A stretch of DNA of 64,000 nt from Betaproteobacteria bacterium. Lineage in GTDB: Bacteria > Pseudomonadota > Gammaproteobacteria > Burkholderiales > Rhodocyclaceae. The translations under genes and the position numbers were made by a program. Of this stretch, positions 2,692-64,000 are shown in pieces; positions within the stretch are counted from its first letter, which is position 1, and each line of letters opens with the position of its first letter. The notes beneath the pieces were generated by a model. That model worked only from the letters and a program-made list of their open reading frames with translations. It was not told the DNA's origin and ran no database searches. The DNA lies in assembly GCA_016234745.1 (NCBI GenBank), contig JACRAR010000066.1, positions 1-64,000 on the forward strand. Reading direction: 5' to 3'.

Positions 2692-2692
2692 C

Positions 2693-3691: not shown

Positions 3692-3705
3692 GGCTGCGCT
3701 CTCCT

Positions 3706-5548: not shown

Positions 5549-5595
5549 AAGCTCCTCCTTTTTTGCGAGCCTAGTACATATCCCTGAACACGATC

Positions 5596-5609: not shown

Positions 5610-5802
5610 TTCAAGCGGGAATCAACTGTGGAAAGCCGCAGCGCCGGAAATCATCCGCCGTGCGAAAATCTGCAAGACAAGAATTTCCCATGTCCTGCAA
5701 GGGGGCATGCAATCTGCCTCGAATCGGTCCTTGCCGGTATAGTCGACTGAACCAAAGGCAAGACAAAACTGCCCAATACCTTAAACGCCTCGGAGGAGGG
5801 TC

Positions 5803-11481: not shown

Positions 11482-11527
11482 CCACTATTTTTGTTACAGG
11501 CTTCGCTCTCAACCAGGAGGAGACAAC

Positions 11528-14218: not shown

Positions 14219-14220
14219 TC

Positions 14221-46962: not shown

Positions 46963-46969
46963 GGAATCG

Positions 46970-48282
<1,313 letters not shown>

Positions 48283-48395
48283 CAGACGCAGAGGGCTGAG
48301 GAACACTCGGCCTGGTTGGGTCGATTTATTGTTTCGTTAAACGGTGTCACGCTTTCGCTGGTCCGCCCAGGGAAAATTTAGTTGAGGTTGCCATC

Positions 48396-49394: not shown

Positions 49395-49410
49395 TGAGGG
49401 GTACTGAAGG

Positions 49411-50778
49411 ATGAGTTTGTTTAGCTGGCACAAATCAGCACTTCCTACCTTCTCGCGTGGGGGCGTCCATCCCGAGGAACATAAGGGACTCACCGAGAAC
49501 CTGCCGATAGAGACTTTTATCCCGACGACCGTGTCGATACCGGTGAGTCAGAGCCTGGGTGCCCCGGCCGAACCACTGGTTGCGAAGGCGGCGATGGTGA
49601 AACGTGGCGACGTCATCGCCACAGTCCCTGGCGGCGGATTGTCTCTGCATGCGCCGATCAGCGGCATCGTCAAATCGGTGCAAACCGGCCCGCACCCGAC
49701 GCTGGTGCATGACACGACCATCACGATTCTCGCCAAGTCGGCCGAAGGCGACCCTGAATTTGCCGAGCAACCCGGCTGGCAGACGCTGGCCATCCCGCAG
49801 ATGCTCGATCGCATCAAGGAAGCCGGTGTCGTCGGTCTGGGCGGAGCGGCCTTCCCCACCTATCGCAAGCTCATGCTGCCGAAGGATGCCAAGGTAGATA
49901 CGCTGGTCATCAACGGTTCGGAATGCGAACCCTACCTGACTTGCGATTACCGGGTGATGCTGGAAGAAAGCGAGCGGGTGGTTCTCGGCTCCTGGGTGAT
50001 CGCAAAGATTATCGGCGTGAAGAACTGCGTCATCGGCATCGAATCGAACAAACAGCCGGCGGCCGAACAAATGCGCAAGACCATTGCCGCACTCGGCATG
50101 GAAGCGATGGACCCGGCGGTAAAGATGAGCGTGGTCGTGACGGAAACCAAATATCCGCAGGGTTCGGAAAAGCAGCTTGTGCAATCGCTGACGGGTCGCC
50201 TGGTGCCCAAGGGCGGACTGCCGCTGCATGTCGGCGTGGTGGTGCAAAACGTCGCCACTGCCGTGGCCTGCCTCGACGCAGTGCGCAATCGCAAGCCGGT
50301 CATCGAGCGCGTGCTGACCGTGTCCGGTGCCGGCATCAAGAACCCGAAGAACCTGCGGGTGCCGATCGGCACCTCGGTCGAGGACATCATCCTCCACTGC
50401 GGTGGCTACAACGGCGACGTGGTCAAGATCCTGTTTGGCGGCCCGATGATGGGGCGCACGATTGCCGATCTGGACGTTTCCGTGACTAAAGGCACCAGCG
50501 GTCTGCTCTTCCTGACTGAGGCCGAGACCAATCTCAACAGTTATCAGCCCTGCATTTCCTGTGGCGAATGCCTGGATGCCTGCCCGATGGGACTGGAGCC
50601 GAATCGCGTTTCACAATACATCGAGGTCAACCGTCCCCTGGAGACCGAACAATTCGGCGTCAAGGAATGTTTCGAGTGCGGCTGCTGTTCCTACAGTTGC
50701 CCGTCCCATCGCCCCCTCGTGCAATTCATGCAGGTGGCCAAGGCGGCCTATCGTCGTCAGGAGAGGAAAGCAAAATGA
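49411..50778 (+). CDS. rnfC: Ion-translocating oxidoreductase subunit RnfC
   Basis: 455 residues. RnfC is the NADH/FMN-binding peripheral subunit. GLGGAAFPTYRKLMLPKDAK and INGSECEPYLTCDYRVMLEE are the NuoF-like nucleotide sites; two [4Fe-4S] motifs lie near 380 and 419 (CISCGECLDACPMGLEPN, CFECGCCSYSCPSHRPL). It lacks the long Ala/Lys-rich tail of E. coli RsxC (about 740 aa), which is the clostridial form. It is the first rnf gene, in the order C-D-G-E-A-B. Confidence 0.95.
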   Translation: MSLFSWHKSALPTFSRGGVHPEEHKGLTENLPIETFIPTTVSIPVSQSLGAPAEPLVAKAAMVKRGDVIATVPGGGLSLHAPISGIVKSVQTGPHPTLVHDTTITILAKSAEGDPEFAEQPGWQTLAIPQMLDRIKEAGVVGLGGAAFPTYRKLMLPKDAKVDTLVINGSECEPYLTCDYRVMLEESERVVLGSWVIAKIIGVKNCVIGIESNKQPAAEQMRKTIAALGMEAMDPAVKMSVVVTETKYPQGSEKQLVQSLTGRLVPKGGLPLHVGVVVQNVATAVACLDAVRNRKPVIERVLTVSGAGIKNPKNLRVPIGTSVEDIILHCGGYNGDVVKILFGGPMMGRTIADLDVSVTKGTSGLLFLTEAETNLNSYQPCISCGECLDACPMGLEPNRVSQYIEVNRPLETEQFGVKECFECGCCSYSCPSHRPLVQFMQVAKAAYRRQERKAK

Positions 50779-51776
50779 GCGACGAATCTGACAAGCCCGC
50801 CAACCCGCTCCATCTGCATCTTTCCAGCGGTCCGCACATTTTCTCGGGCCGCTCGACCGCCCAGATCATGTGGATGGTCAACCTCTCGCTGCTGCCGGCG
50901 CTGCTCTGGGCCTGGGCAGTGTTCGGCTGGGCGGTGCTCGCCATCACCCTGTCCTCGATACTCGGTTGCGTCATCGCCGAGTACGCCGTTTGCCGCATCG
51001 CCAAGACCGCCTCGACCATCGCAGACGGTTCGGCAGTCTGCTCCGGCCTGCTGCTCGCGTACACCCTGCCACCTGGCATGCCGATCTGGATGCCTTTCAT
51101 CGGCGGCATGCTGGCGCTGATTTTCACCAAGGGGATATTCGGCGGGCTCGGCTACAACATCTTCAACGTGGCGCTGGTGGGTCGCGCCATGATGATGGCC
51201 ACGTTCCCGGTGGAGATGACCACGCGTTGGCTGACCCCTGCCCTCGGCAAGGCGGACGCCGTCTCCGCAGCCACGTTTCTGGGGCAGATCAAGCTCGGCG
51301 GCCAGGAGGCTCTGACAAAGATGCTGGCGGCGCTTCCCGACGGCGGCCAACTCTGGTTTGAGTTCTTCCTCGGCATGCGCGCCGGCTCGATCGGCGAAGT
51401 GTCGGTGCTGATGATCCTGCTGGGTGCGGCCTTCTTGCTCTGGAAGGGCATCATCAAACTCTACATTCCGCTCTCCATCCTGGTCGGCGTCGCGTTGATG
51501 GCGCCCTTCTCGCCGGCTCCGGCGATCTACATGCTGTCCGGGGGATTGTGGCTGGGCGCCTTCTTCATGGCGACCGATTATGTGACCAGCCCGACGCAGC
51601 CCCGCGGCCAGATCATCTTCGGCTTGGGGATAGGGCTCTTGACCGGCATCATCCGCAACTGGGGCGGCTACCCTGAAGGCATCTGCTACGCGATCATGCT
51701 CATGAACATTCTTACCCCGGCGCTCAACGACTGGTTCCGACCCAAGCGCCTCACTGCTGGTGGAGCACCGTCATGA
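50775..51776 (+). CDS. rnfD: Ion-translocating oxidoreductase subunit RnfD
   Basis: 333 residues from the ATG at 50775, overlapping rnfC by 4 bp. It is an integral membrane protein with about nine hydrophobic helices; the loop with ADAVSAATFLGQIK corresponds to the region carrying the covalently bound FMN threonine (S-A/G-A-T). Matching family segments include FGGLGYNIFNVALVGRAMMM and FFMATDYVTSPTQPRGQIIF. The SAAT sequence departs from the usual SGAT. Confidence 0.94.
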   Translation: MSDESDKPANPLHLHLSSGPHIFSGRSTAQIMWMVNLSLLPALLWAWAVFGWAVLAITLSSILGCVIAEYAVCRIAKTASTIADGSAVCSGLLLAYTLPPGMPIWMPFIGGMLALIFTKGIFGGLGYNIFNVALVGRAMMMATFPVEMTTRWLTPALGKADAVSAATFLGQIKLGGQEALTKMLAALPDGGQLWFEFFLGMRAGSIGEVSVLMILLGAAFLLWKGIIKLYIPLSILVGVALMAPFSPAPAIYMLSGGLWLGAFFMATDYVTSPTQPRGQIIFGLGIGLLTGIIRNWGGYPEGICYAIMLMNILTPALNDWFRPKRLTAGGAPS

Positions 51777-52666
51777 CCTGCATACCCGGCAAACCGGTCG
51801 TAGACCAGGCGCCGCCCAGCGCGCGCGAAATGATGATTATCGCCATCGGCCTCACCGCGGTGTGTCTGGTCGCGGCGATGATCCTCGGCGGACTGTATTT
51901 CTTCACCCAGCCGGCCAAGGAACACAACCTGCACATGCGCGAGGAGGCCATGATCCGCGGCCTGCTCGGCTTGACGCCCCAAGCCAGGATCCAGGAAGTC
52001 AGACGCTACCTGAAGCGCGAGGGCAAGGACGTGCAGGTCATCTACCTGACCGGCAAGAAGCTCGCGCAACTGGAACTGGACGGCAAGGAAGTTGCCGCCC
52101 TGGACGTGCCGAACGATGTCGCCATCGCGGGCGCTGCCGAGATCAAGGACGAATGGGTGAAGACCCAGGTCAAGGTTTCCAACCCCGAGCACCTCAAGTA
52201 CGCCGGCCGCTTCTTCGTCGGCATTGAAGGAACGCAGCCGGTTGGCTACGTCGTCGAGGGCGTCACTCTGGGCTTCAAGACCTGGATACGTTTCTTCATG
52301 GCCATCGACTCGGCCTTCACCATACAGGGCGTGGAGATCATCGAGCACGAGGAAGACCCCGGCCTGGGCGCCGAGATCGTGCAACGCTACTTCAAGAACC
52401 AGTTCGCCGGCAGGAGCTTCGAGGACATCGAAAAGATCTCGGTCACCAAGGACCCGCTGCCCAAGGAATGGCAGCTTGCGCTGGAGCAACTCGGCGACAT
52501 GCCGTTCCGTCCCTGGCTGGAGAAACATCGCGAGATGCTGCCGAAGAATCCGAACATCTACGCGATCACCGGATCGACCATCAGCAGCACGGCGGTCACC
52601 GTCGGCATCAAGACTGCCCTCGGCAACTTCCGCAAACGCATGAACATCGTGGGGAATTATCTATGA
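51773..52666 (+). CDS. rnfG: Ion-translocating oxidoreductase subunit RnfG
   Basis: 297 residues, longer than E. coli RsxG (about 206). One N-terminal membrane helix (about 21-45) is followed by a periplasmic FMN-binding domain ending near ITGSTISSTAVTVGIKTAL, where the threonine of the family's SGAT motif (here TGST) would carry FMN. VEGVTLGFKTWIRFFMAI and GAEIVQRYFKNQFAG fit the domain. It overlaps rnfD by 4 bp. The stop is followed by a short inserted element before rnfE. Confidence 0.9.
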   Translation: MTCIPGKPVVDQAPPSAREMMIIAIGLTAVCLVAAMILGGLYFFTQPAKEHNLHMREEAMIRGLLGLTPQARIQEVRRYLKREGKDVQVIYLTGKKLAQLELDGKEVAALDVPNDVAIAGAAEIKDEWVKTQVKVSNPEHLKYAGRFFVGIEGTQPVGYVVEGVTLGFKTWIRFFMAIDSAFTIQGVEIIEHEEDPGLGAEIVQRYFKNQFAGRSFEDIEKISVTKDPLPKEWQLALEQLGDMPFRPWLEKHREMLPKNPNIYAITGSTISSTAVTVGIKTALGNFRKRMNIVGNYL

Positions 52667-52667
52667 G

Positions 52668-52788
52668 CGCCGCCCGATTCGCTGCCAAACTCGCCGCCCG
52701 AAGGGCGGCGCAGCCAGCACACGGAGTCCCGCAGGGACGAACCACCGTCACCCCCTGCCGTGGGCAGGGGGCTGGGGGGAGGGCAGTG
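52668..52788. mobile_element. 121-bp hairpin-rich insertion with 7-bp target duplication between rnfG and rnfE
   Basis: CTATGAG occurs at 52661-52667 (spanning the rnfG stop) and at 52789-52795 (spanning the rnfE start), like a target-site duplication. The DNA between contains three perfect hairpins: 52692-52710 (8-bp arms, CGCCGCCC), 52726-52738 (5-bp arms, GTCCC) and 52751-52771 (9-bp arms, CCCCCTGCC). It ends in GGGGGGAGGG, which provides the ribosome site for rnfE. It encodes no credible protein. A REP/MITE-like element is likely. Confidence 0.6.
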
Positions 52789-52790
52789 CT

Positions 52791-53435
52791 ATGAGTGAGC
52801 ATCGCACGCCGCCACCCGTATCGACCATGCTCATGCGTGGCCTGTTCGAGGAAAACCCGATTTTCCGGTTGGCCCTGAGTCTATGCCCGGCTGTGGCAGT
52901 GACCACAGCCGTGAAAAACGGACTGATGCTCGGCGTCGCCGTGCTGGTGGTGCAGGTGCTGTCGAGCATGTCCGGTTCCCTGGTCAAGCACATCATCAAC
53001 CCGAAGATCCGCATTCCGGTGTTCACCCTGCTTATCGCCATCTGGGTGAGCGCCATGGACATGATCCTGGCCGCCTATTTCGCTGACGTGTACCAGCAGG
53101 TTGGACTGTACGTGAAACTGATCGTTGCCTTCGCCATCATCATCTCGCGCATGGAACTCTTCTCCATGAAGCACAGCGTCGTGCCCTGCTTCTGGGATGG
53201 TCTGGGGATGGGTCTGGGCTTCCTGGTCGGCCTGGTGCTGGCCGGTGCCTTCCGCGAATTGCTGGGCAGCGGCAGCATCTTTGGCATCGCCGTGCTGCCG
53301 TTCAAACCTCTGCTGCTGGTTGTGTTGCCGGCCGGCGGCTTTTTCACGATTGGCCTGATCATGGCCTTGTTCAATTGGGTCGACATCAAGCGGGGCCACA
53401 AGCTGCCCGCGGGCGGAGGAGGAGCACATGGCTGA
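52791..53435 (+). CDS. rnfE: Ion-translocating oxidoreductase subunit RnfE
   Basis: 214 residues with about six membrane helices. The family core starts RGLFEENPIFRLALSLCPAV and includes KIRIPVFTLLIAIWVSAMDM and the FRELLGSGSIFG segment; the paired cysteine (LCPAV) is the membrane [2Fe-2S]-type ligand in Rnf/Nqr. The Shine-Dalgarno lies in the inserted element. It overlaps rnfA by 8 bp. Confidence 0.94.
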   Translation: MSEHRTPPPVSTMLMRGLFEENPIFRLALSLCPAVAVTTAVKNGLMLGVAVLVVQVLSSMSGSLVKHIINPKIRIPVFTLLIAIWVSAMDMILAAYFADVYQQVGLYVKLIVAFAIIISRMELFSMKHSVVPCFWDGLGMGLGFLVGLVLAGAFRELLGSGSIFGIAVLPFKPLLLVVLPAGGFFTIGLIMALFNWVDIKRGHKLPAGGGGAHG

Positions 53436-54255
53436 TGCAAAAGTAGTCTCACCCCACGAGATCCTGGTCGAGGGCGCGCTGCCCGCCGATGCGACGGCGA
53501 TACGCCTGGTGCGCAGTTCGGACGCGGACATTCCGCTGGCTGTGGTTTCCGTCAAGCCGGCGGCACAACCCAACAGTTTCACACTGACCACCGCCGAAAC
53601 ACTTAACAAGCAGGACCACTACCAGTTGACGGCCAAGGGCGTCGACCAGCCTTGGGAAATCGCACCGTCGCCGCTGGCCATGGTGATCTCGGTGATTATC
53701 GGCTCGGCGCTGATCAACAATTTCGTGTTCACCCGCTACCTCGGCTTGTGCGTATTCTTCGGAGTCAGCAAGAACAAGGACACCGCGATCGGCATGGGCG
53801 TCACCTTCACCATCGTCGGCCTGCTCTCCGGAATGATCTCCTGGACGCTCAACACCTTTGCCCTCGAGCCGCTGCGGCTGGAGTTCATGCAGATCATCGC
53901 CTTCATCGGCATCGTCGCCTGCCTGGTGCAGGCCACCGACCTGATCCTGAAGAAGGTGAACCCTGTCCTGCACAAGAAGTTCGGCATCTACCTGGTGCTG
54001 ATCACCACCAACTGCATCATCCTGGCAGTACCCTTGCTCAATGCGACCAGCGGCGCGACGTTTTTGCAGGCCCTTGGGCTGTCGCTGGGCGCCGGTCTCG
54101 GCTTCGCCCTGGCCCTGTTCCTGATGAGCTGCGCCATCGAGAAAGTGAACATGGCGCCGGTGCCGCTGGTGTTCAAGGGACTGCCCGTCGCCTTCATCAT
54201 CGCCGGCCTGTTCGCCTTGAGCTTTCTCGGTTTCTCCGGCCTGAAGGTAGCATAA
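53428..54255 (+). CDS. rnfA: RnfA with an additional N-terminal soluble domain
   Basis: 275 residues, against about 193 for normal RnfA. The canonical membrane part begins near residue 85 (MVISVIIGSALINNFVFTRY, LGLCVFFGVSKNKDTAIGMG) and has six helices with the paired Cys. The first 80 residues are hydrophilic and beta-rich (KVVSPHEILVEGALPADATA, NSFTLTTAETLNKQDHYQLT), resembling an immunoglobulin-like or early-set domain. The start at 53428 has an excellent GGAGGAGGAG ribosome site, while the internal ATG at 53680 has none, so the extension is probably translated. Its role is unknown. Confidence 0.9.
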   Translation: MADAKVVSPHEILVEGALPADATAIRLVRSSDADIPLAVVSVKPAAQPNSFTLTTAETLNKQDHYQLTAKGVDQPWEIAPSPLAMVISVIIGSALINNFVFTRYLGLCVFFGVSKNKDTAIGMGVTFTIVGLLSGMISWTLNTFALEPLRLEFMQIIAFIGIVACLVQATDLILKKVNPVLHKKFGIYLVLITTNCIILAVPLLNATSGATFLQALGLSLGAGLGFALALFLMSCAIEKVNMAPVPLVFKGLPVAFIIAGLFALSFLGFSGLKVA

Positions 54256-54259
54256 CGCC

Positions 54260-55165
54260 ATGGACCTCCTACACGTTGCAATCTGGGGCGTCCTTGTCTT
54301 CACGACGCTTGGCCTGTTTTTCGGCATCGCACTGGCCAGCGCGGCACGCAAATTCCATGTGCCGGTCAATCCGCTGGTCGAGGAAGTGCGCGAGAACCTG
54401 CCGTCCGCCAACTGCGGCGCCTGCGGCTTCGCCGGCTGCCAGACCTACGCGGAGAAGGTCGTTGAAGACGAGGGTGTCTCGCCGTCCCTGTGCACTCCGG
54501 GGGGCAAGGTGGTCGCCATCGACATTTCCCGGCTCACCAACAAGACCATGGGGGAAATCAAGGAAGTGGTGGCCATGCTGCGCTGCTCGGGTGCCGATTC
54601 GGTGGCCAGACAACAAGCCGAGTACGACGGCATCCACACCTGCCTTGGCGCCAGCCTGGCGTTTGGCGGCTCCAAGGCCTGCAAATACGGCTGCCTGGGT
54701 TTGGGCGACTGCGTGCGCGTCTGCAATTTCGACGCCATGAAGATCAGCGACCAGGGCATCGTCGAGATCGACTACAACAAGTGCACCGGCTGCGGCGTCT
54801 GCCTCGATGTCTGTCCGAAAGACTGCCTCATCAGCTACCCGCGCGCCTACCGCGTCGCGCTGACCTGCCAGTCGAAAGGCAAGGGCAAGGCGGTCAAGGA
54901 CACCTGCACCGTCGGCTGCGTCCAGTGCCAGGCCTGCATCAAGGAATGTCCAGCCAAGGCGATCAGCATGGCCGATGGGATTTTGAACATCGACCACGTT
55001 GCCTGTCTGGCCTATGGCCCGAGCTGCAACGAAATCTGCGTCACGGTCTGCCCCACCGACATCATTCACCACCCTGGCCAAGAGCCCGACGCCAACAAGC
55101 CCAAGCCGAAGAAAGTCGCGAAAGCCAAGGCGGAGGAAAGCACCACCGCTGACGCCAGCGCCTGA
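54260..55165 (+). CDS. rnfB: Multi-cluster RnfB subunit
   Basis: 301 residues. One N-terminal membrane helix (about 5-27) is followed by the 4Fe-S domain motif NCGACGFAGCQTYAEKVVED and further cysteine groups: CKYGCLGLGDCVRVC, CTGCGVCLDVCPKDC, CVQCQACIKECPAK and CLAYGPSCNEICVTVCP. That suggests about five [4Fe-4S] clusters, like the long RnfB of Clostridium/Acetobacterium, not the ~190-aa form of E. coli. It ends with a Lys/Ala tail. It accepts electrons from or gives them to ferredoxin. Confidence 0.93.
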   Translation: MDLLHVAIWGVLVFTTLGLFFGIALASAARKFHVPVNPLVEEVRENLPSANCGACGFAGCQTYAEKVVEDEGVSPSLCTPGGKVVAIDISRLTNKTMGEIKEVVAMLRCSGADSVARQQAEYDGIHTCLGASLAFGGSKACKYGCLGLGDCVRVCNFDAMKISDQGIVEIDYNKCTGCGVCLDVCPKDCLISYPRAYRVALTCQSKGKGKAVKDTCTVGCVQCQACIKECPAKAISMADGILNIDHVACLAYGPSCNEICVTVCPTDIIHHPGQEPDANKPKPKKVAKAKAEESTTADASA

Positions 55166-55172
55166 TCGTTTC

Positions 55173-55208
55173 GAACCGCCAGGATCCGGCACATCAGGGC
55201 GCCGGTTC
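55173..55208 (+). terminator. Possible terminator after the rnf operon
   Basis: GAACCG (55173-55178) pairs with CGGTTC (55203-55208), followed by TTTCTT. The 24-base loop is long, and the right arm lies in the last codons of the convergent ankyrin gene. Weak evidence; it could end both transcripts. Confidence 0.25.
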
Positions 55209-56315
55209 TTTCTTGAATCGATCGACCGCCTCAAGCAAGGCCTTACGCAAATCCCCGGTCGGCTTCCCGGCTGCGCGGGCGCGGGCGATCCGCTCCAGAA
55301 TTTCCGTGACACCCCCGGTCGCGGGCGTGGCTTCCTCACTGACCTTGGGATAAACCAGTTCGGCACGCTCTTCCTGAGGTGACTTGCGGGTTTCCGCGCG
55401 CCGGGCGGTTATCACGAGCGCCTGCGGCTTGCCGCGCCGCAGCGGCTTGCCCGGATTTACTCTGCCGATCACCAGTTTCTGACTGTCTTTCTTAAAGCGC
55501 TCGACCGCAGCGAACAAGTCCTTGCGCAAAGCTTCCACAGGCTGCCCGGCGGCTTGTGTCAAGCGTATCCGGCGCATGATTTCCTCGATCTCCGAAGGCG
55601 CCGGCGCAGAGCGCACGCGGGCGCCAAAACTTTCCGGCGCAGCCTGGACAGCCTTGGCGAACTGGGCTGCCGTGGACACCATCTGGGCGATCTTGAAATG
55701 CTCATGACGCATCGCCCAGGTCAGTGCGGAATCGCCGCTGTCATTAGTCGCCCGGGGATCGGCACCCGCCGCAAGCAGCAGGCGCGCGAGTTCCTCGCGT
55801 CCTTCCCGCGCCGTCATCATCAGCGCCGTTGAGCCGTTCGGAGCGCGCGCATTGACCTGGGCGCCCCGCTCCAGCAGCAGTTCGACGATGTCCTTGCGAT
55901 CGGCGAATGCGGCATAGTGCAAGGCATTCCATTTTCCCGGTCGATCGACGCTCGCGCCATGCGCCAGCAGCCATTCGACCGCCTCGAGATGGCCTTTCCA
56001 GGCGGCCAGTTGCAATGCCTGCTCGTCATAGCGATTGTCCATATCGAGATGTGCGCCATGCTTGAGGAAAAGTTCCATCATGGCGACATTGCCCTCCCAG
56101 GCCGCGATCATCAGGCCGCTGCCGACGCGATCGCCCTGAAAATCCGGATCCAGGCCCTCCTCCAGCCACTGCTGAACCGTTTCGATGCGCCCAGCTTCGA
56201 CGGCTGTCGCGAAGAGCGCCGGGTCGGGTCGGGCCGCTAGCGCGGCGCTCGAAAACAAACCGACAATCGCCGCCAGAATCATGCTGCCCAGCCAGCCACT
56301 ACTTTCGATTCGCAC
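55194..56315 (-). CDS. Exported ankyrin-repeat protein
   Basis: 373 residues from a GTG at 56315, which has a GGGGGGA ribosome site; a TTG seven codons earlier is less likely. A signal peptide ends near ALAAR. Four to five ankyrin repeats span about residues 30-190, for example AWEGNVAMMELFLKHGAHLD, YAAFADRKDIVELLLERGAQ and MTAREGREELARLLLAAGAD. The C-terminal half carries two related charged repeats (GQPVEALRKDLFAAVERFKK and GKPTGDLRKALLEAVDRFKK). Probably a periplasmic interaction protein. It is convergent to rnfB. Confidence 0.85.
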   Translation of the reverse strand: MRIESSGWLGSMILAAIVGLFSSAALAARPDPALFATAVEAGRIETVQQWLEEGLDPDFQGDRVGSGLMIAAWEGNVAMMELFLKHGAHLDMDNRYDEQALQLAAWKGHLEAVEWLLAHGASVDRPGKWNALHYAAFADRKDIVELLLERGAQVNARAPNGSTALMMTAREGREELARLLLAAGADPRATNDSGDSALTWAMRHEHFKIAQMVSTAAQFAKAVQAAPESFGARVRSAPAPSEIEEIMRRIRLTQAAGQPVEALRKDLFAAVERFKKDSQKLVIGRVNPGKPLRRGKPQALVITARRAETRKSPQEERAELVYPKVSEEATPATGGVTEILERIARARAAGKPTGDLRKALLEAVDRFKKEPAP

Positions 56316-56430
56316 TGCAATTTCCCCCCGGCGCAATCAGGCAATCTCGATCACAATCCCGCTTGAAGCCAAGCTTAGCTTATTCTATCGTCAGCGTTCA
56401 TTCACTTTATCCGCTCCGGTTTTCTTTCCC

Positions 56431-56973
56431 ATGCCGGCATACTTTCAGCAGCGCCGTCTCTATCTCTCCCTGGCAGCCTCGCTGCTGTTTCATGCGGCAC
56501 TGCTTGGCAGCGGCGATCTGGCGCTCTTGTTTGCACCGCAGTGGGTCAAGGCGGTACCGGCTGTGTTGCAAGTCCCTGTGTTGCAGGCCTATTTACTGCC
56601 AATTCCGAACACGGCAGAACTGCTCAAGAACACCTTGAGCGAAGAAAAGGCGGAAGTCCTGGCATTGTCTCCTCGACCTGCCGCCCGGCCAGCCGGGACG
56701 ATGCCGCAGGCACCACGGGAGGAATCGGCCGAGCGCAAGCTGGCGGAACATCTCTTCTATCCGCCGGAAGCCATCGCCAGCGGACTGCAAGGCGAAGTGC
56801 GGCTATTGTTGCTGCTTGATGCGGAGGGTGGGGTGATTGACGCGCAGATCGCCAGCAGCAGCGGTCATGACCTGCTCGATCAGGCAGCGATCGCTGCAGC
56901 TCACGCCATGCGCCGCCTGCCGGACACGGGTGTGCGCGAACTGATCCTGCCCGTGGTCTTCAAGCTGCAGTAG
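56431..56973 (+). CDS. TonB-family energy transducer-like protein
   Basis: 180 residues from the ATG at 56431. A membrane anchor (RLYLSLAASLLFHAALLG) is followed by a Pro/Ala-rich span and a TonB C-terminal domain (AEHLFYPPEAIASGLQGEVR, LLLLDAEGGVIDAQIASSSG). The periplasmic spacer is short compared with E. coli TonB (239 aa), and no exbB/exbD is adjacent. It may serve a specific transporter or be an envelope protein with a TonB-like fold. Confidence 0.78.
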   Translation: MPAYFQQRRLYLSLAASLLFHAALLGSGDLALLFAPQWVKAVPAVLQVPVLQAYLLPIPNTAELLKNTLSEEKAEVLALSPRPAARPAGTMPQAPREESAERKLAEHLFYPPEAIASGLQGEVRLLLLLDAEGGVIDAQIASSSGHDLLDQAAIAAAHAMRRLPDTGVRELILPVVFKLQ

Positions 56974-57000
56974 CCCCGCGCATCGCAGTAAGATAGCGAC

Positions 57001-58479
57001 ATGGCAATCAGCTTCCTTTCAGCATGGCGAATTTTGTTGTCGCTGACGGCATGCATCACGCTCGCTCCAGCCCTGGCGCAGCCGGTTGAGCGCTTGCCCA
57101 GCACAGTTGCGCGGGCGCTGCAGACAGCCGGAATTCCCAAGCAAAATGTCGCCGTAATTGTGCAGGATGTAACCGACGGAGCGCCATCAAAACCGCACGT
57201 CCGGGTCAATCCCACGCAAGCGTTCAATCCTGCTTCGTTGATGAAATTATTGACGACTTATGCCGCACTGGAACTGCTCGGCCCGGGTTACACCTGGAAA
57301 ACCGAGGCCTGGATTCACGGCAAGGTGTCGGGAGGCGTCCTGCAAGGCGATCTGGTGCTCAAGGGCAGCGGCGATCCCAAGCTGACCTTCGAGCAATTCT
57401 GGCTGCTGCTGCGGCAATTGCGCGCCAGGGGGCTGCGTGAGATTCACGGTGACCTGGTGCTGGATCGCAGCCGCTTCGACAACGCATCGATCAACGCTTC
57501 AAGCGCGGAGATTTTCGATGACCAGCCGCTGCGCCCCTATAACGTCACGCCGGATGCCCTGCTGCTCAATTTCAAGACGCTGCGTCTGCAACTGATGCCG
57601 AATCCGGACAACCAGACCCTGGTCGTATTGGGCGAACCTCAACTCGTCAATCTGGACATCATCAACCTCATCAGACCAGGCACCCTCAATCAAGACTGCG
57701 GCAACTGGAAAGATGCCCTGCATGCTGAACTTTCATCGGGCAATCAACGCACGCAACTGCTCCTCAGCGGCGTTTATCCTCCGTCCTGCGGAGAAAAAAT
57801 CTGGCATCTCGGCGTCCTGTCGCATCCCCAATATGTGGAAGGTGTGTTCCGCCAATTGTGGCAGGATCTGGGCGGCACCTTGACCGGCAGCTTGCGCGAG
57901 GCAACCCTGCCGGCCGGTGCGCAGTTGCTTGCGAGCAGCGTATCGCCGCCGCTCTCCGAGGTACTGCGCGACATCAACAAATTCAGCAACAACGTGATGG
58001 CGCGGCAGCTGTTCCTGACCATCGGCGCCGAATATCCAGCCATTGCGGGTCGCAATGAAGGCGGCGCCAAGGTGATTCGCACCTGGTTGCAGGAAAAACA
58101 ATTGGACTTCCCCGAGATGGTGCTGGAGAACGGCTCGGGTCTGTCACGCCACGAACGACTCTCCGCCGACAGTTTGACGCGACTGCTGCTGGCGGCCTGG
58201 CAAAGCCCGCTGATGCCCGAATTTCTGGCATCGCTGCCGCTCAGCGCGATCGACGGCACCATGAAGCATCGCCTCAACCTGCAAGCCCTTGCCGGGCAGG
58301 CCCACGTCAAGACGGGTTCGCTGGAAGGGGTCAAGACCATTGCGGGCTATGTGCACGACCAAAGCGGCCGCTGGCATATCGTCGTGTTTCTGGTCAACCA
58401 CGCCAATGCCGCAGCAGCACAGCCTGCGCAGGACGCCTTGTTGCGTTGGGTATACAACCGGGGCGCTCGCGGCGGCTGA
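57001..58479 (+). CDS. dacB: D-alanyl-D-alanine carboxypeptidase/endopeptidase (PBP4)
   Basis: 492 residues. A signal peptide (WRILLSLTACITLAPALAQP) exports it to the periplasm. The three active-site motifs are present: FNPASLMKLLTTYAALELLG (SxxK near 79), NKFSNNVMARQ (SxN near 328) and VKTGSLEGVKTIAG (KTG near 436). It trims and cleaves peptidoglycan cross-links. It lies 27 bp after the TonB-like gene. Confidence 0.95.
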   Translation: MAISFLSAWRILLSLTACITLAPALAQPVERLPSTVARALQTAGIPKQNVAVIVQDVTDGAPSKPHVRVNPTQAFNPASLMKLLTTYAALELLGPGYTWKTEAWIHGKVSGGVLQGDLVLKGSGDPKLTFEQFWLLLRQLRARGLREIHGDLVLDRSRFDNASINASSAEIFDDQPLRPYNVTPDALLLNFKTLRLQLMPNPDNQTLVVLGEPQLVNLDIINLIRPGTLNQDCGNWKDALHAELSSGNQRTQLLLSGVYPPSCGEKIWHLGVLSHPQYVEGVFRQLWQDLGGTLTGSLREATLPAGAQLLASSVSPPLSEVLRDINKFSNNVMARQLFLTIGAEYPAIAGRNEGGAKVIRTWLQEKQLDFPEMVLENGSGLSRHERLSADSLTRLLLAAWQSPLMPEFLASLPLSAIDGTMKHRLNLQALAGQAHVKTGSLEGVKTIAGYVHDQSGRWHIVVFLVNHANAAAAQPAQDALLRWVYNRGARGG

Positions 58480-58662
58480 TTTGCTTTTCCGGGATCCGCC
58501 AATTCCGGGTAACTACTTGCCAATTAAAGCAGTGCAGCTATTCGAGCCCAGCAAAGATTGATAGTTCTAGGATAAATCTTGCATTAATAGGATAGCTGCG
58601 TAAAACCGCAGGTTGTAGTATTCGCACTGTAGCCTGTCGCGAACTTCAACCAAGGAGCGAAA
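58480..58662. promoter_or_regulatory. Intergenic region upstream of the molybdoenzyme operon
   Basis: 183 bases without a gene. An imperfect inverted repeat, GCAAAGATT at 58551-58559 and AAATCTTGC at 58574-58582, surrounds GATAGTTCTAGGATA and could bind a regulator of the downstream operon. The region is AT-richer than its surroundings, as promoters here tend to be. No clear FNR or sigma-54 site was seen. Confidence 0.3.
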
Positions 58663-61266
58663 ATGGATCTATCCACGCAACCTGTGCAGAATTCGATGAA
58701 ACCCGGCAAATGGGTGAATTCGACATGCAAGATGTGTCTTCATTCTTGTGTGACGCGCATCCACATCACCGATGACGGTGTCGTCAACAAAGTCGAAGGC
58801 CACCCCACCGCCCCGAGCAATAATGGTCGCCTGTGCCCGAAAGGCAACGCGGCAATCCTGAGGCATTACGATCCCACGCGTTTCAAGACGCCGCTGCGGC
58901 GCACCAACCCGGAGAAAGGGCCGGGGGTCGATCCGAAATGGGAGCCGATCAGCTGGAACGAGGCCCTGGACATTGTCGGCCGCGAACTCAAGCGCACCAT
59001 GGATGAAGACCGGCGCAAGCTGCTGCCGGCGATCAACGATTTCCAGAAGCTGTTTCTTTGGGCCTGGCCGGCCGCATATGGCAATGCCAATTATTTCTCC
59101 TCGGTCGGCAATTTCTGCGGCGGCGGCTATCACCCGATGAACGGCTTCGTGCATTCCGCCTTCGCCGCGGCCAACGACGTCAATTACTGCAACTACTGGA
59201 TCAACAACGGCGGCGGCGACGGCTTCTCGTCGCATCTGCACACTGCGGCCCAAGCCAACCACGTTGCGAAAGCCCGCGTCGAGCGCAACATGCGCGTGGT
59301 GGTAATCGAGCCGCGCCTGTCCATCGGCGGCGCCAAGGCCAACGAGTGGGTGCCGATCCGCCCCGCCACCGACCGGCAGTTCGCGCTCGGACTGTGCCAT
59401 GTGCTGGTGTATGAGAAGCTGTATGACGTCAAGTTTTTGAAGAAGGACACCAACGCGCCTTACCTGGTCGGTCCCGACGGCTATTTCGTGCGCAATGCCG
59501 AAGGCAAGATCTACGTCTGGGATGCCGGGGACGGCCAGGCGAAACTATGGGACGATCCGAGCATCAAGGATTTCGCGCTCGAAGGCACCTATCAGGTGGA
59601 AGGCAAGGAGTGCAAGCCGAGCTTCCAGAAGTTCAAGGACATTCTGCGCGATTGCACGCCAGAACAGATGTCCGAGATCACCACCGTGCCTGCCGAGAAC
59701 ATCCGGCGCATCGCCCGCGAATTCGCCAAGGCGGCGCAAATCGGCTCCTTCATCGAGATCGAGGGTCGCCTGCTGCCCTTGCGGCCGGCGGGCTACAACT
59801 TCTATCGCGGCGCCCAGGGACACAAGTACAGCGCCATGACCAACCAGTCCTTCAAACTGGTCAATTTCCTGATCGGCGCCATCGACACCCCCGGCGGCCA
59901 TGTCGGCGCCACGCTCGATGACCAGATGCAGGAAATTCGCGGCGGCTGCGGCATGATCAATGCCGGCGAGAACGGCATGATGAAAACCGCACCGCATCAG
60001 TTGCACCCCGAAGTGCCGTTTTCCTATCCGCCCAACGAGACTCACCTGATGGGCTATTTTCCGATCGGCGTAGACCCGGGGCACCTGACCCAGATGACGC
60101 TGGAGAATCCGGAAAAGTTCGGCCTCAACTACAAGCCCGACACGATGCTGATGTGCCATTCCAATCCGGTCTGGAACCTTTCCGGCAAGCGCGAGAAATG
60201 GTTCGAGATGATGCGCGGCATGCGTTTCATCGTTGCCATCGACATCCTGCCGAACGAATCCAACGAATGGGCCGACATCATCCTGCCCGCGCACGATCTG
60301 CTCGAATCCTGGAACTTGACCATGATCGAGCCGCCGCACCACGAAGGCATGTGCCTGCGCCAGCCGGCCACGGAGCCGCTCTACGACACCAAGAGCGAAG
60401 AAGAAATTTTCAATGAAATATCCGAACGTCTCGGCATCCTCGAAATCTGGAACACCATCCAGAACTTCGTCAATGGTTTCCATCAGAAGCCGGAACTGTT
60501 GCTCGATCCGAAGACCAAGTACGGCGACAAGGAAATCGCCGAGCGCAAGGGCAAGCTGTGGAACGGCCAGGACCTGAACTGGTACATCGAACACGGTCAC
60601 GCCGTGACGCCGCGCAAACCAGAGAAGTGGTACCGGCCCTGGGAAGGCATGCGCCTGCATTTCTACATCGAGGATATTCTGCGGGCACGCGACGATCTGA
60701 AAAAGAAGATGGAAGATGCCAATGTCGCCATCCGCCACGAATGGGAATGGTACGACTATCAGCCATTGCCGACACCGAAGCTCGACCCGGTGCATGAAGA
60801 ACCGCAAGAGTTCGACATGTATGCAATCACCTTCAAGGACATCCAGATCAACTTCGGCGAAAGCATCGGCAATCCCTGGATCAACGACATCGTTTTCAAG
60901 GATCCGGTGCACACCACGGTGCTGCTGAATACCGCGACGGCCAAAGCCAAGGGACTCGCCAACGGCGACATCGTCCGGATCGAATCGCCCTACGGCAGTA
61001 TCGTCGCCCGGGTCTCGGCTTCCCAGGGAGTCCATCCGGAAACGGTCTGCGTCTCCAACGCGCTGTCGCGCATCGCCACCCAGAACAGCGCAGTGCGTCT
61101 GGGCGGCGGCAATTTCAACGAGCTCCTGCCGGCCAACCTGAAGAACACCGATGCCTGCAGCGGCCAGCCAGAAACGGTGGCCAAAGTGAAATTGACCAAA
61201 CTCACGGTGATGCCGGCCGAATTCATGGCCAGCAACTCCGCTTACGCGCATGGAAGGGGACACTGA
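58663..61266 (+). CDS. padB: Molybdopterin oxidoreductase catalytic subunit, phenylacetyl-CoA:acceptor oxidoreductase-like (PadB)
   Basis: 867 residues. The N-terminal [4Fe-4S] motif is TCKMCLHSCV (Cys22, 25, 29) with the fourth Cys at 58 in RLCPKGNAAILRHYDP. Cys152 in GNFCGGGYHP is the probable Mo ligand. The C-terminal part is the molybdopterin-dinucleotide-binding domain (KGLANGDIVRIESPYGSIVA). No Tat signal precedes it, so the active site faces the cytoplasm, unlike polysulfide, thiosulfate or tetrathionate reductases. With the next two genes this fits PadBCD, which oxidises phenylacetyl-CoA to phenylglyoxylate. That name is inferred from topology, subunit sizes and the aromatic-acid context; another cytoplasmic acceptor reductase is possible. 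Confidence 0.6.
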   Translation: MDLSTQPVQNSMKPGKWVNSTCKMCLHSCVTRIHITDDGVVNKVEGHPTAPSNNGRLCPKGNAAILRHYDPTRFKTPLRRTNPEKGPGVDPKWEPISWNEALDIVGRELKRTMDEDRRKLLPAINDFQKLFLWAWPAAYGNANYFSSVGNFCGGGYHPMNGFVHSAFAAANDVNYCNYWINNGGGDGFSSHLHTAAQANHVAKARVERNMRVVVIEPRLSIGGAKANEWVPIRPATDRQFALGLCHVLVYEKLYDVKFLKKDTNAPYLVGPDGYFVRNAEGKIYVWDAGDGQAKLWDDPSIKDFALEGTYQVEGKECKPSFQKFKDILRDCTPEQMSEITTVPAENIRRIAREFAKAAQIGSFIEIEGRLLPLRPAGYNFYRGAQGHKYSAMTNQSFKLVNFLIGAIDTPGGHVGATLDDQMQEIRGGCGMINAGENGMMKTAPHQLHPEVPFSYPPNETHLMGYFPIGVDPGHLTQMTLENPEKFGLNYKPDTMLMCHSNPVWNLSGKREKWFEMMRGMRFIVAIDILPNESNEWADIILPAHDLLESWNLTMIEPPHHEGMCLRQPATEPLYDTKSEEEIFNEISERLGILEIWNTIQNFVNGFHQKPELLLDPKTKYGDKEIAERKGKLWNGQDLNWYIEHGHAVTPRKPEKWYRPWEGMRLHFYIEDILRARDDLKKKMEDANVAIRHEWEWYDYQPLPTPKLDPVHEEPQEFDMYAITFKDIQINFGESIGNPWINDIVFKDPVHTTVLLNTATAKAKGLANGDIVRIESPYGSIVARVSASQGVHPETVCVSNALSRIATQNSAVRLGGGNFNELLPANLKNTDACSGQPETVAKVKLTKLTVMPAEFMASNSAYAHGRGH

Positions 61267-61880
61267 TGGCTAAATGGGGCATGGTTTTCGATCTGCGCCG
61301 CTGCATAGGCTGCAATGCCTGCGCGGTCGCCTGCAAGCAGGAGAACACTTTGCCGAACGGCATGTTCTTCACCAAGACGCTCTCCGAGGAAGTCGGTGTC
61401 TTTCCCAATGTCACGCGCATCTACATTCCGACGATTTGCAATCATTGCGAGGATGCGCCCTGCGAACGGGTTTGCCCGACCGGCGCGACCTACACGCGGG
61501 CAGACGGCATCGTGCTGGTCGATCACGACCTGTGCATCGGTTGCGGCACCTGCGTGGTCGCCTGTCCGTACGATCAGCGCACCCGCATAGAATCGGAAAT
61601 GCTCGAGCAGGGACTGTTCAACAACGGCGAACTGACGCCTTTCGAAAAGCAGGGCAATGTGCGTTTCACGGCGGGTACGGTGCAGAAATGCACGTTCTGC
61701 CACGAGCGCGTGGATGCCGGCCTTGATCCCGCCTGCGTCGCCACCTGCCCAACCGAGGCGCGCATCTTTGGCGACCTGGACGATGCCAACAGCAAGGTGC
61801 GCAGACTGATCCAGGAGCATCGCGGCCGTCAGCCGTTGCCGGAGAAAAACACCAATCCGCGAGTGTTCTATATCGACTGA
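61266..61880 (+). CDS. padC: Four-cluster iron-sulfur subunit of the molybdoenzyme (PadC-like)
   Basis: 204 residues, starting inside the previous stop (TGATG). Sixteen cysteines form four ferredoxin motifs: CIGCNACAVACKQ, CNHCEDAPCERVCP, CIGCGTCVVACP and CTFCHERVDAGLDPACVATC. This is the DmsB/PsrB/NrfC-type electron-transfer subunit. It has no export signal, consistent with a cytoplasmic complex; it would pass electrons from the Mo subunit to the NrfD-type membrane subunit. Confidence 0.68.
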   Translation: MAKWGMVFDLRRCIGCNACAVACKQENTLPNGMFFTKTLSEEVGVFPNVTRIYIPTICNHCEDAPCERVCPTGATYTRADGIVLVDHDLCIGCGTCVVACPYDQRTRIESEMLEQGLFNNGELTPFEKQGNVRFTAGTVQKCTFCHERVDAGLDPACVATCPTEARIFGDLDDANSKVRRLIQEHRGRQPLPEKNTNPRVFYID

Positions 61881-61942
61881 TGCCTGCCGCCCCGCGTCAC
61901 TTGGGGCGGCATCTTTTCGCAGCGCGCAAGGAGGATACACAG

Positions 61943-62845
61943 ATGCATTCCAGGCACTTCATGAACGAAGAGGAAGATTTCAAGGTTGGCCCGCGCAGCC
62001 AGAAGGCGTGGGGCGTGCATATAGCCACCGCGTTCTTCTTTGGCGAGGCCGGAGCAGGCCTGTATTTTGTTTCGCAATTCTTCGATTTCACCATCGGCAT
62101 GAGCATCGCACTATTGATGGTGCTGATCGGCAAGGGCGGCGGCCACCTGGTCCATCTCGGTCAGCCCATGCGCGGTTGGCGCGCCCTGGCCAAGGTCGGC
62201 ACTTCCTGGATCAGCCGGGGACTGCTGGCCATCGCCGTATTTGTCTTCACCGGGGCACTGCATGTGCTGAATCTCAACACCGCGTTCATGCCACAGGCGC
62301 TGTCGGCTTTGGTGAGTCTTGTCGCAGTGGCTGCCTGCCTGGTCATCATGGTCTATCAGGGTTTCGCGATGTCCCATTCTTCCGCGATCACCTTGTGGAG
62401 CACCGGCCTGATGCCGGTCGCCAGTCTCACCTACGGCCTGCTGAACGGCGTGCTGCTAACCCTGGTGCTGGGTTTCAACACCCCGCTGCTCAATGATCAT
62501 CCGGAAATCTTCCAACTCCTGCAGGCCGCGGCAATCGCCCTCATGCTCTATGGCCTGGTCATGGTATTGAGCCTGTTGCACGGCGCCAAGTACGGCTCCG
62601 AAGGCGGGCAAAAATCCGTCGAACTACTCGTGCGCGGAGCTTTTGCCGGCTGGTTCGTCCCGGTCGTGATCCTGCTCGGCTTTGTCGTTTCGGCTTTGTT
62701 CATGAGCTTCGCGCCGCGCAACCTGTTCTCGATGATCGCCGTGGCCGGCACCGAACTGACCGGATACTATGCATTTCGGGTATTGATGTTCAAGGTCGGC
62801 ACTTACGACCCGGTGATGAGCTTCGCTCACCATTTCAGGCGTTAA
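61943..62845 (+). CDS. padD: NrfD/PsrC-type membrane anchor (PadD-like)
   Basis: 300 residues from the ATG at 61943, with a GGAGGA ribosome site. About eight or nine hydrophobic helices follow a short N-terminal tail; the first starts AWGVHIATAFFFGEAGAGLY. The GGHLVHLGQPMRGWRAL segment is typical of NrfD/PsrC quinone-binding subunits. It anchors the Mo and Fe-S subunits and passes electrons to quinone. Confidence 0.68.
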   Translation: MHSRHFMNEEEDFKVGPRSQKAWGVHIATAFFFGEAGAGLYFVSQFFDFTIGMSIALLMVLIGKGGGHLVHLGQPMRGWRALAKVGTSWISRGLLAIAVFVFTGALHVLNLNTAFMPQALSALVSLVAVAACLVIMVYQGFAMSHSSAITLWSTGLMPVASLTYGLLNGVLLTLVLGFNTPLLNDHPEIFQLLQAAAIALMLYGLVMVLSLLHGAKYGSEGGQKSVELLVRGAFAGWFVPVVILLGFVVSALFMSFAPRNLFSMIAVAGTELTGYYAFRVLMFKVGTYDPVMSFAHHFRR

Positions 62846-62862
62846 CAGTCCAAGAGCAGCCG

Positions 62863-63816
62863 GTGCACAAATTCTTGCGCGACTTTTCCGGGCAGAACGG
62901 CACAAAAGCCGTATCTGCCCGCCGCTTTTCAGCAGACCGCAGCAATCCCGATCTGGCGAATTGCTGGGTCGTGCAGGAGGATGCCCTGAACATCGAGGTC
63001 GCGGATGTCGGCGCTTACACGCTGATGTGGACGCCCACCGAAGATGCCGTGGCAAGCGGTTTCGTGGCGGGTGAAGGCGTACTCGGAACCGAGCATGTTC
63101 CAGAACGCCTGGCATTGGCCGCGGGTTTTGCTTTCAGCGAAGGCATCATCGGTGGTCTGCAGGACATCGCCAGCATGGAAGTCTGCCCCGAGCGACCTGA
63201 TATCGTGCGCATGCGCCTGGTCGATCCGACCAAAGCGAAAGTCCGGCGCAGCAACGTACTCATGACCAGTTCCTGCGGCGTTTGCGGGGGCCGCGACGTG
63301 CTGGAAGGGGAGATGGTCGGTTTTCCTGAAATTTCCACCACCCTGCGCATGTCGGTAGACGATTTTTTGCCGTTGATGGAAGCCATGCGGCAACGGCAGG
63401 CGGTTTTCAGCACAACCGGCGGCGCCCACGCCGCAATGATCTTTTCCGCGGATCGACAGATTCTGGCAATCGCCGAAGACCTCGGCCGGCACAATGCGCT
63501 CGACAAGGCCATCGGTTTATGCCTGCTGCGACAACAGCCGATCGCCGGATGCGGTGCAATGCTTTCCAGCCGGCTGAGTTTCGAGATGATCGCCAAGTCC
63601 GCACGTGCGGGCCTGGAAATGGTAGCCGCCGTGTCTGCGCCCTCCTCGCTTGCGATCGCCACGGCCGAGCGCCTGGGCATCACCCTGTGCGGCTTTGTGC
63701 GCGGAGAATGCGCCACGGTCTATACTCATCCTGAGCGAATTCGCGAACTGCAAAAAACCCCCGAATCGACGCAGCAGCCGGCCGCCGCAACGCGCGCCGG
63801 CGCCGGCTTGCCCTGA
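62863..63816 (+). CDS. fdhD: FdhD-like sulfurtransferase
   Basis: 317 residues from a GTG at 62863, 17 bp after the anchor gene; a later start is possible. FdhD transfers sulfur to the molybdenum cofactor. The essential CxxC is in TSSCGVCGGRDVLEG near residue 136, and the core matches (AFSEGIIGGLQDIASMEVCP; EDLGRHNALDKAIGLCLLRQ; ILSSRLSFEM-like end). The segment before the core (VADVGAYTLMWTPTEDAVAS) lacks the usual EEPL motif. It presumably serves the molybdoenzyme encoded just upstream. Confidence 0.85.
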   Translation: MHKFLRDFSGQNGTKAVSARRFSADRSNPDLANCWVVQEDALNIEVADVGAYTLMWTPTEDAVASGFVAGEGVLGTEHVPERLALAAGFAFSEGIIGGLQDIASMEVCPERPDIVRMRLVDPTKAKVRRSNVLMTSSCGVCGGRDVLEGEMVGFPEISTTLRMSVDDFLPLMEAMRQRQAVFSTTGGAHAAMIFSADRQILAIAEDLGRHNALDKAIGLCLLRQQPIAGCGAMLSSRLSFEMIAKSARAGLEMVAAVSAPSSLAIATAERLGITLCGFVRGECATVYTHPERIRELQKTPESTQQPAAATRAGAGLP

Positions 63817-63871
63817 GGCATGCCGCAAACACCGAATGACTACAACATTCTGAGCTAAGGAGAATACCGCG

Positions 63872-64000
63872 ATGGAAAATGTCTTGACCCAACTACTGCA
63901 AGGAATCAGCGGCGGCAAAGTGAAAGTTGTCGATCTGACGCAAACGCTCTCCCCCGATTTTCCGGCATTGCAATTGCCGCCGGAGTTCGGCCAGGTCTGG
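63872..64000 (+). CDS. Cyclase-family protein, N-terminal part (cut by window end)
   Basis: 43 residues seen, from an ATG after a TAAGGAG ribosome site. VKVVDLTQTLSPDFPALQLP is the start of the cyclase family (KynB-like, metal-dependent amide or lactone hydrolases). The family assignment is likely, the role is not known. Confidence 0.6.
   Translation, partial: MENVLTQLLQGISGGKVKVVDLTQTLSPDFPALQLPPEFGQVW

Follow-up and report, generated by a model that had tools for sequence, protein, structure and literature searches.

A predicted padBCD-fdhD-cyclase-padEFGHI operon with a second PadBCD lineage in a genome of the Rhodocyclaceae

Gene content and conservation of the locus

The window analysed here is a 64,000-nucleotide stretch of a betaproteobacterial genome of the Rhodocyclaceae (GenBank assembly GCA_016234745.1, contig JACRAR010000066.1, positions 1 to 64,000; contig C43 below), and at its 3' end lies the first part of a pad-type operon. 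Four forward-strand open reading frames (ORFs) with family matches make up this part: a padB-like molybdenum (Mo) subunit of 867 residues, which belongs to the lineage called type II below (58663..61266); a padC-like 4Fe-4S ferredoxin-type subunit of 204 residues with 4Fe-4S domains (61266..61880); a padD-like membrane anchor of the DmsC superfamily, 321 residues as called, though its start may be further in (61880..62845); and fdhD, 317 residues with an FdhD-NarQ domain, from the subfamily that accompanies type II padBCD (62863..63816). The Mo, iron-sulfur (Fe-S) and anchor ORFs overlap by one base each, and fdhD starts after a 17-base gap. This arrangement agrees with a first-pass annotation of the sequence alone, which had described an Mo subunit, an Fe-S subunit, an NrfD-type anchor and an adjacent fdhD at 58663-63816.

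A fifth gene, which the first-pass annotation had not noticed, encodes an isatin-hydrolase homologue (PF04199; hereafter the cyclase); the window edge cuts it so that only its start is included (63872..64000, forward strand; whole gene C43:63872-64651). The window ends at base 64000 of the 113172-base contig, from a genome that is 97.9% complete, and the contig read past this edge continues on the same strand with padE, a small padF, padG, padH and padI after C43:64651 and up to ~C43:69448. PadG and PadI score 772.7 and 840.1 bits, both above the NCBIfam equivalog cut-off of 700 (C43:65565-69361), and their genes lie 1.7-5.5 kb 3' of fdhD on the same contig and strand. PadE and PadH were assigned by homology to their counterparts in type I operons (described below). 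Just one PadG in this genome passes the cut-off, namely the copy adjoining padBCD-fdhD. The locus is thus a predicted padBCD-fdhD-cyclase-padEFGHI operon, and the proposal of a phenylacetate-to-benzoyl-coenzyme A (CoA) type operon is supported by the downstream padG and padI and by a gene order repeated in five Aromatoleum species.

Relatives of the Mo subunit were sought in 150 genomes of the same family, our own included, and in a scan of named genomes covering the best 80 of 140 loci. The family survey found Mo subunits of 80-86% identity in five other genomes and of 60-63% in six, including a paralogue in our own genome (contig C52) and one present in two pieces. Among the best 80 named-genome loci, PadB identity was 86% in Aromatoleum buckelii and 80-82% in A. 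toluvorans, A. toluclasticum, A. toluolicum, A. tolulyticum and A. evansii KB740, the last with two loci, and no Thauera appeared among them. A tblastn search of plasmids returned no close relative (309 records, all <60%). The order padBCD-fdhD-cyclase-padE-G-H-I is the same as in the window in A. evansii, A. toluvorans, A. toluclasticum, A. toluolicum and A. tolulyticum. A set of 61 loci was compared in which padB reaches at least 55% identity, over 2 kb, with either the window protein or the C52 paralogue; 14 of them, from more than one phylum, also contain padG or padI. In seven of these 14 (L051, L052, L057, L061, L068, L075 and L097, on alphaproteobacterial, betaproteobacterial and deltaproteobacterial contigs and one untitled contig), padEGHI or their remains precede padB. 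Judged by gene order and homology, this is a conserved and genuine operon for a kind of pathway that is already known, with a second PadBCD lineage and a recognisable FdhD subfamily.

The surroundings of these operons vary. In one Aromatoleum type II locus (L047:3104-9813), Ycf48-like, MMPL transporter, DUF1302 and DUF1329 genes lead into padB, and partial equivalents of this set occur 5' of padB in others, L047 being the one fully tested by family. In our genome, C43:69400-74671 (L028:12400-17671), 3' of padI, holds an ORF pair that by eye resembles an AbrB/PIN toxin-antitoxin system, together with a radical-SAM protein and a caspase-domain protein with low GC content at third codon positions, and this side of the operon may be a junction with foreign DNA. 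A paralogous BCD set on C52 (L030, C52:50001-70000, positions 8586-16888, minus strand) lies directly behind an indolepyruvate-oxidoreductase-like alpha/beta pair and looks like a second arylacid route. An Rfam scan of 54000-64000 and a tRNA scan of the whole window gave no matches.

Two lineages of PadB and their FdhD neighbours

The Mo subunit exceeds the Pfam cut-offs for Molybdopterin, Molydop_binding and Molybdop_Fe4S4; it has a four-cysteine N-terminal cluster motif and conserves C152 at the presumed Mo-ligand position. The anchor has eight hydrophobic segments and matches DmsC (46.2 bits, cut-off 22.3) rather than NrfD (16.3 bits, cut-off 25.8), so the integral membrane anchor of the earlier annotation stands and its NrfD label gives way to the more exact DmsC type. 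Export signals were checked with a hydropathy scan rather than a trained signal predictor: neither a hydrophobic stretch nor an arginine pair occurs within residues 1-45 of the Mo subunit, and the single arginine pair of the Fe-S subunit adjoins its first cysteine motif, with no hydrophobic N-terminus or twin-arginine-like motif seen. Evident export signals are absent from both subunits, as first proposed, and the likeness to PadBCD is right in kind: this is a membrane-anchored PadBCD-like complex within a pad operon. The AlphaFold model of PadB was unusable (mean predicted local distance difference test score, pLDDT, 36.5).

The first-pass annotation had staked its reading on the closest homologues being other than arsenate, polysulfide or thiosulfate reductases. 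The outcome is mixed. The best curated and best solved relatives of PadB are in fact thiosulfate/polysulfide (PhsA/PsrA) and arsenate (ArrA) reductases, yet the scores fall far under the curated cut-offs (PhsA 216 of 694 bits, ArrA 157 of 1600 bits), and Mo subunits 66-86% identical to the window protein adjoin padG/padI. The PadC proteins of type II loci in named Aromatoleum species are 81-85% identical to that of the window.

Comparison with a second kind of operon places this complex in its own lineage. Genome G100, which we take from its gene order to be Aromatoleum aromaticum EbN1, carries what we call a type I operon, fdhD-padBCD-padE-G-H-I with a ligase-like ORF (padJ by eye), at C1:3201760-3213183. 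The numbering of EbN1 PadC/D as EbA5395/6 and PadJ as EbA5402, in the excerpted text of PMC5109826, fits such a padBCD...padJ cluster. The window PadB is 33.7% identical to the G100 protein over 826 positions and falls in a separate clade; PadC is 46.7% and PadD 30.4% identical, and the values for PadE, PadG, PadH and PadI are 63%, 68%, 51% and 64%. No full-length relative of the window PadB above 35% was found in G100. An initial assignment of the window PadB as an orthologue of the characterised protein was withdrawn on these grounds. Type I and type II each form a clade with support of 100 in our trees, and their sister relation has support of 0. The N-terminal cluster motif is CxxCxxxC in type II, its third cysteine is missing in six aligned type I or type-I-like rows, and both types keep the cysteine at the presumed Mo-ligand position. 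The NCBIfam PadG and PadI models score type I and type II proteins alike and so do not indicate the lineage from which the models come.

By sequence comparison, type II is a second PadBCD lineage common to our genome and the named Aromatoleum species, and the window complex resembles PadBCD in its context, and probably also in what it does, without being an orthologue of the EbN1-type enzyme. The two lineages also coexist: in G137 and G044 both operons occur, and each operon comes with a padE-G-H-I of its own; G137 has an additional type I fdhD-B-C set. G009 carries type I padBCD at a contig end together with a complete type II operon, and G065 carries type I. A short type II PadB fragment in G100 (C1:1236598-1236939; L164:9565-10011, minus strand; 48-60% by different searches) is possibly a decayed remnant. 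The type I PadB of locus L156 (G044:C1:3180001-3190000) scores far under the PhsA and ArrA cut-offs and 17.0 bits to Molybdop_Fe4S4 (cut-off 22.7), and type I PadB-like proteins may be easily misannotated.

The window FdhD matches PF02634 (FdhD-NarQ) at 218.9 bits and TIGR00129 at 168.9 (cut-off 140.9), and stays below the cut-off of NF001943 (207 against 269). Its N-terminal divergence, noted in the first-pass annotation, is real: in type II FdhD proteins an insertion comes after the sequence LMWTP or a close variant of it, and in the window protein this insertion comprises 21 residues between TP (57-58) and GF (88-89) of the GF..SEG motif. The AlphaFold model (mean pLDDT 86.8) predicts the insertion with confidence to be a beta-hairpin, with strands at 66-68 and 72-74, the best fold matches were 4pde (top) and 2pw9, and the loop cysteines C138/C141 are invariant in 26 aligned FdhD proteins.

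This signature insertion was present in 34 of 69 FdhD compared, and the 34 form one clade (support 100/99). Of these, 31 have a type II padB, of the window kind or of the group at about 60% identity, no further than 3 kb away, and one more lies at 4.8 kb (L063). The family survey detected FdhD in 83 genomes; all eleven proteins whose domain spans at least 768 bases, or whose alignment leaves out model positions 1-26, were of the signature kind (a selection that left out short and contig-end fragments), and none of 30 other FdhD fetched from it carried the insertion. Among named-scan loci with at least 3 kb of downstream sequence, FdhD occurs within 3 kb of padB in 24 of 50, with the signature in 23, and in nine of the 12 that also hold padG/I. 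Type I operons have an ordinary FdhD immediately upstream in 7/7 loci read, though for most of the seven the FdhD neighbour was already visible when the loci were chosen. Three loci with relatives of 34-35% identity (L163, L167 and L168) gave no FdhD match in their 20-kb pieces.

The type II group at about 60% identity (L033, L034, L035 and L036) combines the signature FdhD with F420-type and xanthine-dehydrogenase-family genes. L035 contains CofC, CofD and a CofE-like protein together with a flavin adenine dinucleotide (FAD) subunit and a large subunit of the xanthine-dehydrogenase family; L033 and L034 contain large and FAD subunits and a CofC-like protein, the L033 large subunit (the one tested) being fused to CoxG; and L036 contains CofC/D/E-like proteins. 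In our own genome, a type-I-like Mo subunit 66% identical to EbN1-type PadB lies on contig C53 (L173, C53:442001-462000, positions 8573-11266), and its 20-kb piece yielded no match for a C subunit, a D subunit or FdhD.

Proposed route and alternative explanations

Our data suggest, with a probability of roughly two in three, that the locus encodes a type II phenylacetyl-CoA:acceptor oxidoreductase-like complex with its own FdhD, acting as follows. A PadJ-type ligase, presumably the one encoded on contig C45, would convert an arylacetate to the CoA ester. Cytoplasmic type II PadB, carrying bis-molybdopterin guanine dinucleotide Mo with C152 as the likely cysteine ligand by alignment, would then carry out a four-electron oxidation at the alpha carbon of this ester; the electrons, to judge from the families involved, would pass through the PadB and PadC clusters and the DmsC-type anchor to the quinone pool. 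The operon's FdhD would place sulfur on the Mo cofactor before insertion, giving a sulfido-Mo enzyme as in formate dehydrogenases. The arylglyoxylyl-CoA product would be hydrolysed, possibly by the operon's isatin-hydrolase-family enzyme, and PadEFGHI, of which G and I have clear family membership, would oxidatively decarboxylate the arylglyoxylate to aroyl-CoA with nicotinamide adenine dinucleotide. Benzoyl-CoA would finally enter a class II BamB-type reductase and Had/Oah steps. The association with FdhD points to a possible sulfido-Mo PadB; of the dedicated cofactor sulfuration first proposed, an own FdhD of a distinct subfamily stands, and the sulfido-Mo state is a prediction from gene association.

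Genes for both ends of this route are present in the genome. C45 encodes a PadJ-type ligase (709.1 bits), Oah (603.6) and Had (549.3), all over cut-off. A BamB on contig C31 reaches 1155.5 bits to 4z3w (labelled benzoyl-CoA reductase) and lies on the minus strand (L040, C31:60001-80000, positions 626-7421) with Fe-S, CCG-domain and FAD/Fe-S neighbours that are HdrD-like and HdrA-like by domain content. Class I benzoyl-CoA reductase gave 0 matches in this genome, so that a BamB-type class II reductase occurs in a genome of an Aromatoleum-related family without a class I match. boxB was also found; the idea that benzoyl-CoA goes solely into the aerobic box pathway was withdrawn once Oah, Had and the BamB-type reductase had been found.

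The first-pass annotation had included in the route a 2-oxoacid enzyme encoded near the opposite edge of the window (1057-5548), a part of the proposal that is not supported. This enzyme scores 269.7 bits to PadG and ~180 to PadI (cut-off 700) and 461.6 bits to PorA_Arch (cut-off 550), and we rejected it as the PadEFGHI partner. It is most likely a pyruvate-type enzyme, since it adjoins LutB/LldF-type, GlcD-like, AceE and dihydrolipoyl dehydrogenase genes. Elsewhere in the window, 45121-55165 holds a Kor-type 2-oxoacid:acceptor oxidoreductase, an ApbE-like gene and an rnfCDGEAB-like set, several members of which score under their cut-offs.

Isatinate is 2-aminophenylglyoxylate, so isatin hydrolases make an arylglyoxylate, and phenylglyoxylyl-CoA hydrolysis is for that reason the natural candidate reaction for the cyclase. 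The best solved match is the Ralstonia solanacearum isatin hydrolase RsIHA (5nmp; 452.8 bits, 73% identity), with LaIHA (5nnb) at 57%. The window protein keeps the H-x3-H-x-D metal motif and Mn ligands, the Asp-His dyad, Gln219 and Tyr204, residues named in PMC6117287 and given here in LaIHA numbering. In 17 of 20 cyclases from pad-type loci (16 distinct places), which are 54-58% identical to the window protein, the last two positions are Ala219 and Phe204, and four of these Ala219 proteins are encoded ~9 kb from padB on the opposite strand. The cyclase of L075 (47%) has Thr219 and Phe204, and that of L050 (68%) has Gln219 and Glu204. A cyclase is present in 10/12 loci that have at least 3 kb downstream and padG/I, and no second cyclase match was found in our genome. 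That an isatin-hydrolase type occupies the slot filled elsewhere by the Ala219 type would be in keeping with a common task, and a candidate phenylglyoxylyl-CoA hydrolase is our guess, a guess because of the split between the Gln219 and Ala219 types. The step itself is named in PMC9765128 and implied in PMC13416013, with no gene named in the excerpted text of either, and the isatin-hydrolase homologue supplies a gene candidate for it.

Several observations weigh against the reading as a type II phenylacetyl-CoA oxidoreductase with its own FdhD. The distance from EbN1-type PadB means that the substrate cannot be carried over from that enzyme, and the C52 paralogue (PadB 59.5%) sits behind the indolepyruvate-oxidoreductase-like pair with no FdhD in its piece, which indicates that close relatives serve other contexts. 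The link to FdhD is likewise imperfect: 26 of the 50 type II loci lack an FdhD within 3 kb downstream; the padG-linked loci L057, L075 and L097 lack the signature form (L075 has a non-signature FdhD 3.5 kb off); and the A. buckelii locus (L041) reads padBCD-cyclase, FdhD and PadEFGHI both being absent from the piece. The pattern is also broken by four type-I-like Mo subunits (59-67%), two standing beside a signature FdhD (L160 and L161) and the other two having no FdhD match (L173 and L176). Finally, the window cyclase is nearer to the R. solanacearum isatin hydrolase (73%) than to the other pad-locus cyclases (mostly 54-58%).

The strongest alternative concerns the substrate: the type II operon may serve another arylacetyl-CoA, such as 4-hydroxyphenylacetyl-CoA or an aminophenyl compound, phenylacetyl-CoA being the task of the type I, EbN1-type enzyme. 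The retention of both complete operons in G137 and G044 would be understandable on this view, as would a cyclase homologous to enzymes whose known product is isatinate (PMC6117287, in part). We consider it a tentative explanation, appreciably less probable than the one set out above. In our genome just one PadG passes the phenylglyoxylate dehydrogenase cut-off, and this PadG and its PadI score as high as their type I counterparts, so that the window operon must perform the phenylacetate step if any does; moreover, no type I operon turned up in this genome, just the lone type-I-like B on C53. In this genome, with one PadG over the cut-off, the substrate is most likely phenylacetyl-CoA, with substituted arylacetyl-CoA as the main alternative.

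It is unlikely that FdhD serves a formate dehydrogenase elsewhere and stands in the operon by accident. The excerpted text of PMC10609526 does present FdhD as a formate dehydrogenase sulfurtransferase, adding that it can replace TorD on TorA in vitro, and in three genomes (G106, G083 and G114) a formate-dehydrogenase-like frame interrupted by an in-frame TGA occurs although the sole FdhD belongs to the PadBCD-like cluster. However, our genome has a second, ordinary FdhD on C31 beside such a frame, again with an in-frame TGA, the one-clade signature tracks type II padBCD in 31/34 cases, and in type I operons a separate FdhD lies on the opposite flank. FdhD has also been placed in a Bam benzoyl-CoA reductase cluster (PMC13101534, in part). 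That the complex reduces oxyanions or sulfur compounds (arsenate, thiosulfate or polysulfide) in the cytoplasm and adjoins padEFGHI by chance, as its best curated and solved matches might imply, is very improbable given scores far under the cut-offs, no export signal seen, no arsenate or sulfur gene among the annotated neighbours and a padG/padI linkage that recurs in 14/61 loci.

A broader interpretation is conceivable, at well under even odds: anaerobic arylacetyl-CoA alpha-oxidation may have arisen in two well separated molybdoenzyme lineages, each with a dedicated sulfurating FdhD, PadB being a sulfido-Mo enzyme that removes hydride from the alpha C-H as formate dehydrogenase does, and the isatin-hydrolase-family protein being an arylglyoxylyl-CoA hydrolase. 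The occurrence of FdhD beside two distant PadBCD lineages, in one of them as a distinct subfamily, gives a concrete prediction for the ligands around Mo in such C-H-oxidising enzymes, and a cofactor-sulfur helper of its own makes the cofactor chemistry of type II PadB testable. The coexistence of two complete pad operons is also a warning that, when PadEFGHI is the sole basis of annotation, the difference between two front-end enzymes goes unseen.

Comparison with known systems

Among the matches listed from the open-access literature, no title or abstract reported a second lineage of PadBCD, nor did any place an FdhD or an isatin hydrolase within a pad operon. The lineage would be partly known already if the purified A. 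evansii enzyme is of type II.

EbN1-type PadBCD shares with the window complex the Mo, Fe-S and anchor subunits, the operon with PadEFGHI, an adjacent FdhD and the cysteine at the presumed Mo-ligand position; the window differs in the downstream position and other subfamily of its FdhD, the added isatin-hydrolase-family gene and the four-cysteine N-terminal motif. PhsA/PsrA and ArrA, which are exported enzymes, belong to the same Mo-enzyme superfamily, but the window PadB falls ~3-fold (PhsA) and ~10-fold (ArrA) under their curated cut-offs. The FdhD proteins of Escherichia coli (4pde) and Desulfotalea psychrophila (2pw9) share the fold and GF..SEG motif of the window FdhD, and the E. coli protein also its two loop cysteines, whereas the window protein has the 21-residue insertion and a neighbour that is not a formate dehydrogenase. 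RsIHA and LaIHA resemble the window cyclase in metal and catalytic residues as well as in overall identity, but the window gene lies inside an aromatic-acid operon. The type II cyclases of Aromatoleum, for their part, have Ala and Phe where the isatin hydrolases and the window protein carry Gln219 and Tyr204. Closest of all are the type II pad operons of A. evansii KB740, A. toluvorans, A. toluclasticum, A. toluolicum and A. tolulyticum, which share the gene order of the window and differ in that several are preceded by some or all of the DUF1302-DUF1329-MMPL-Ycf48-like genes, whereas the window locus is not.

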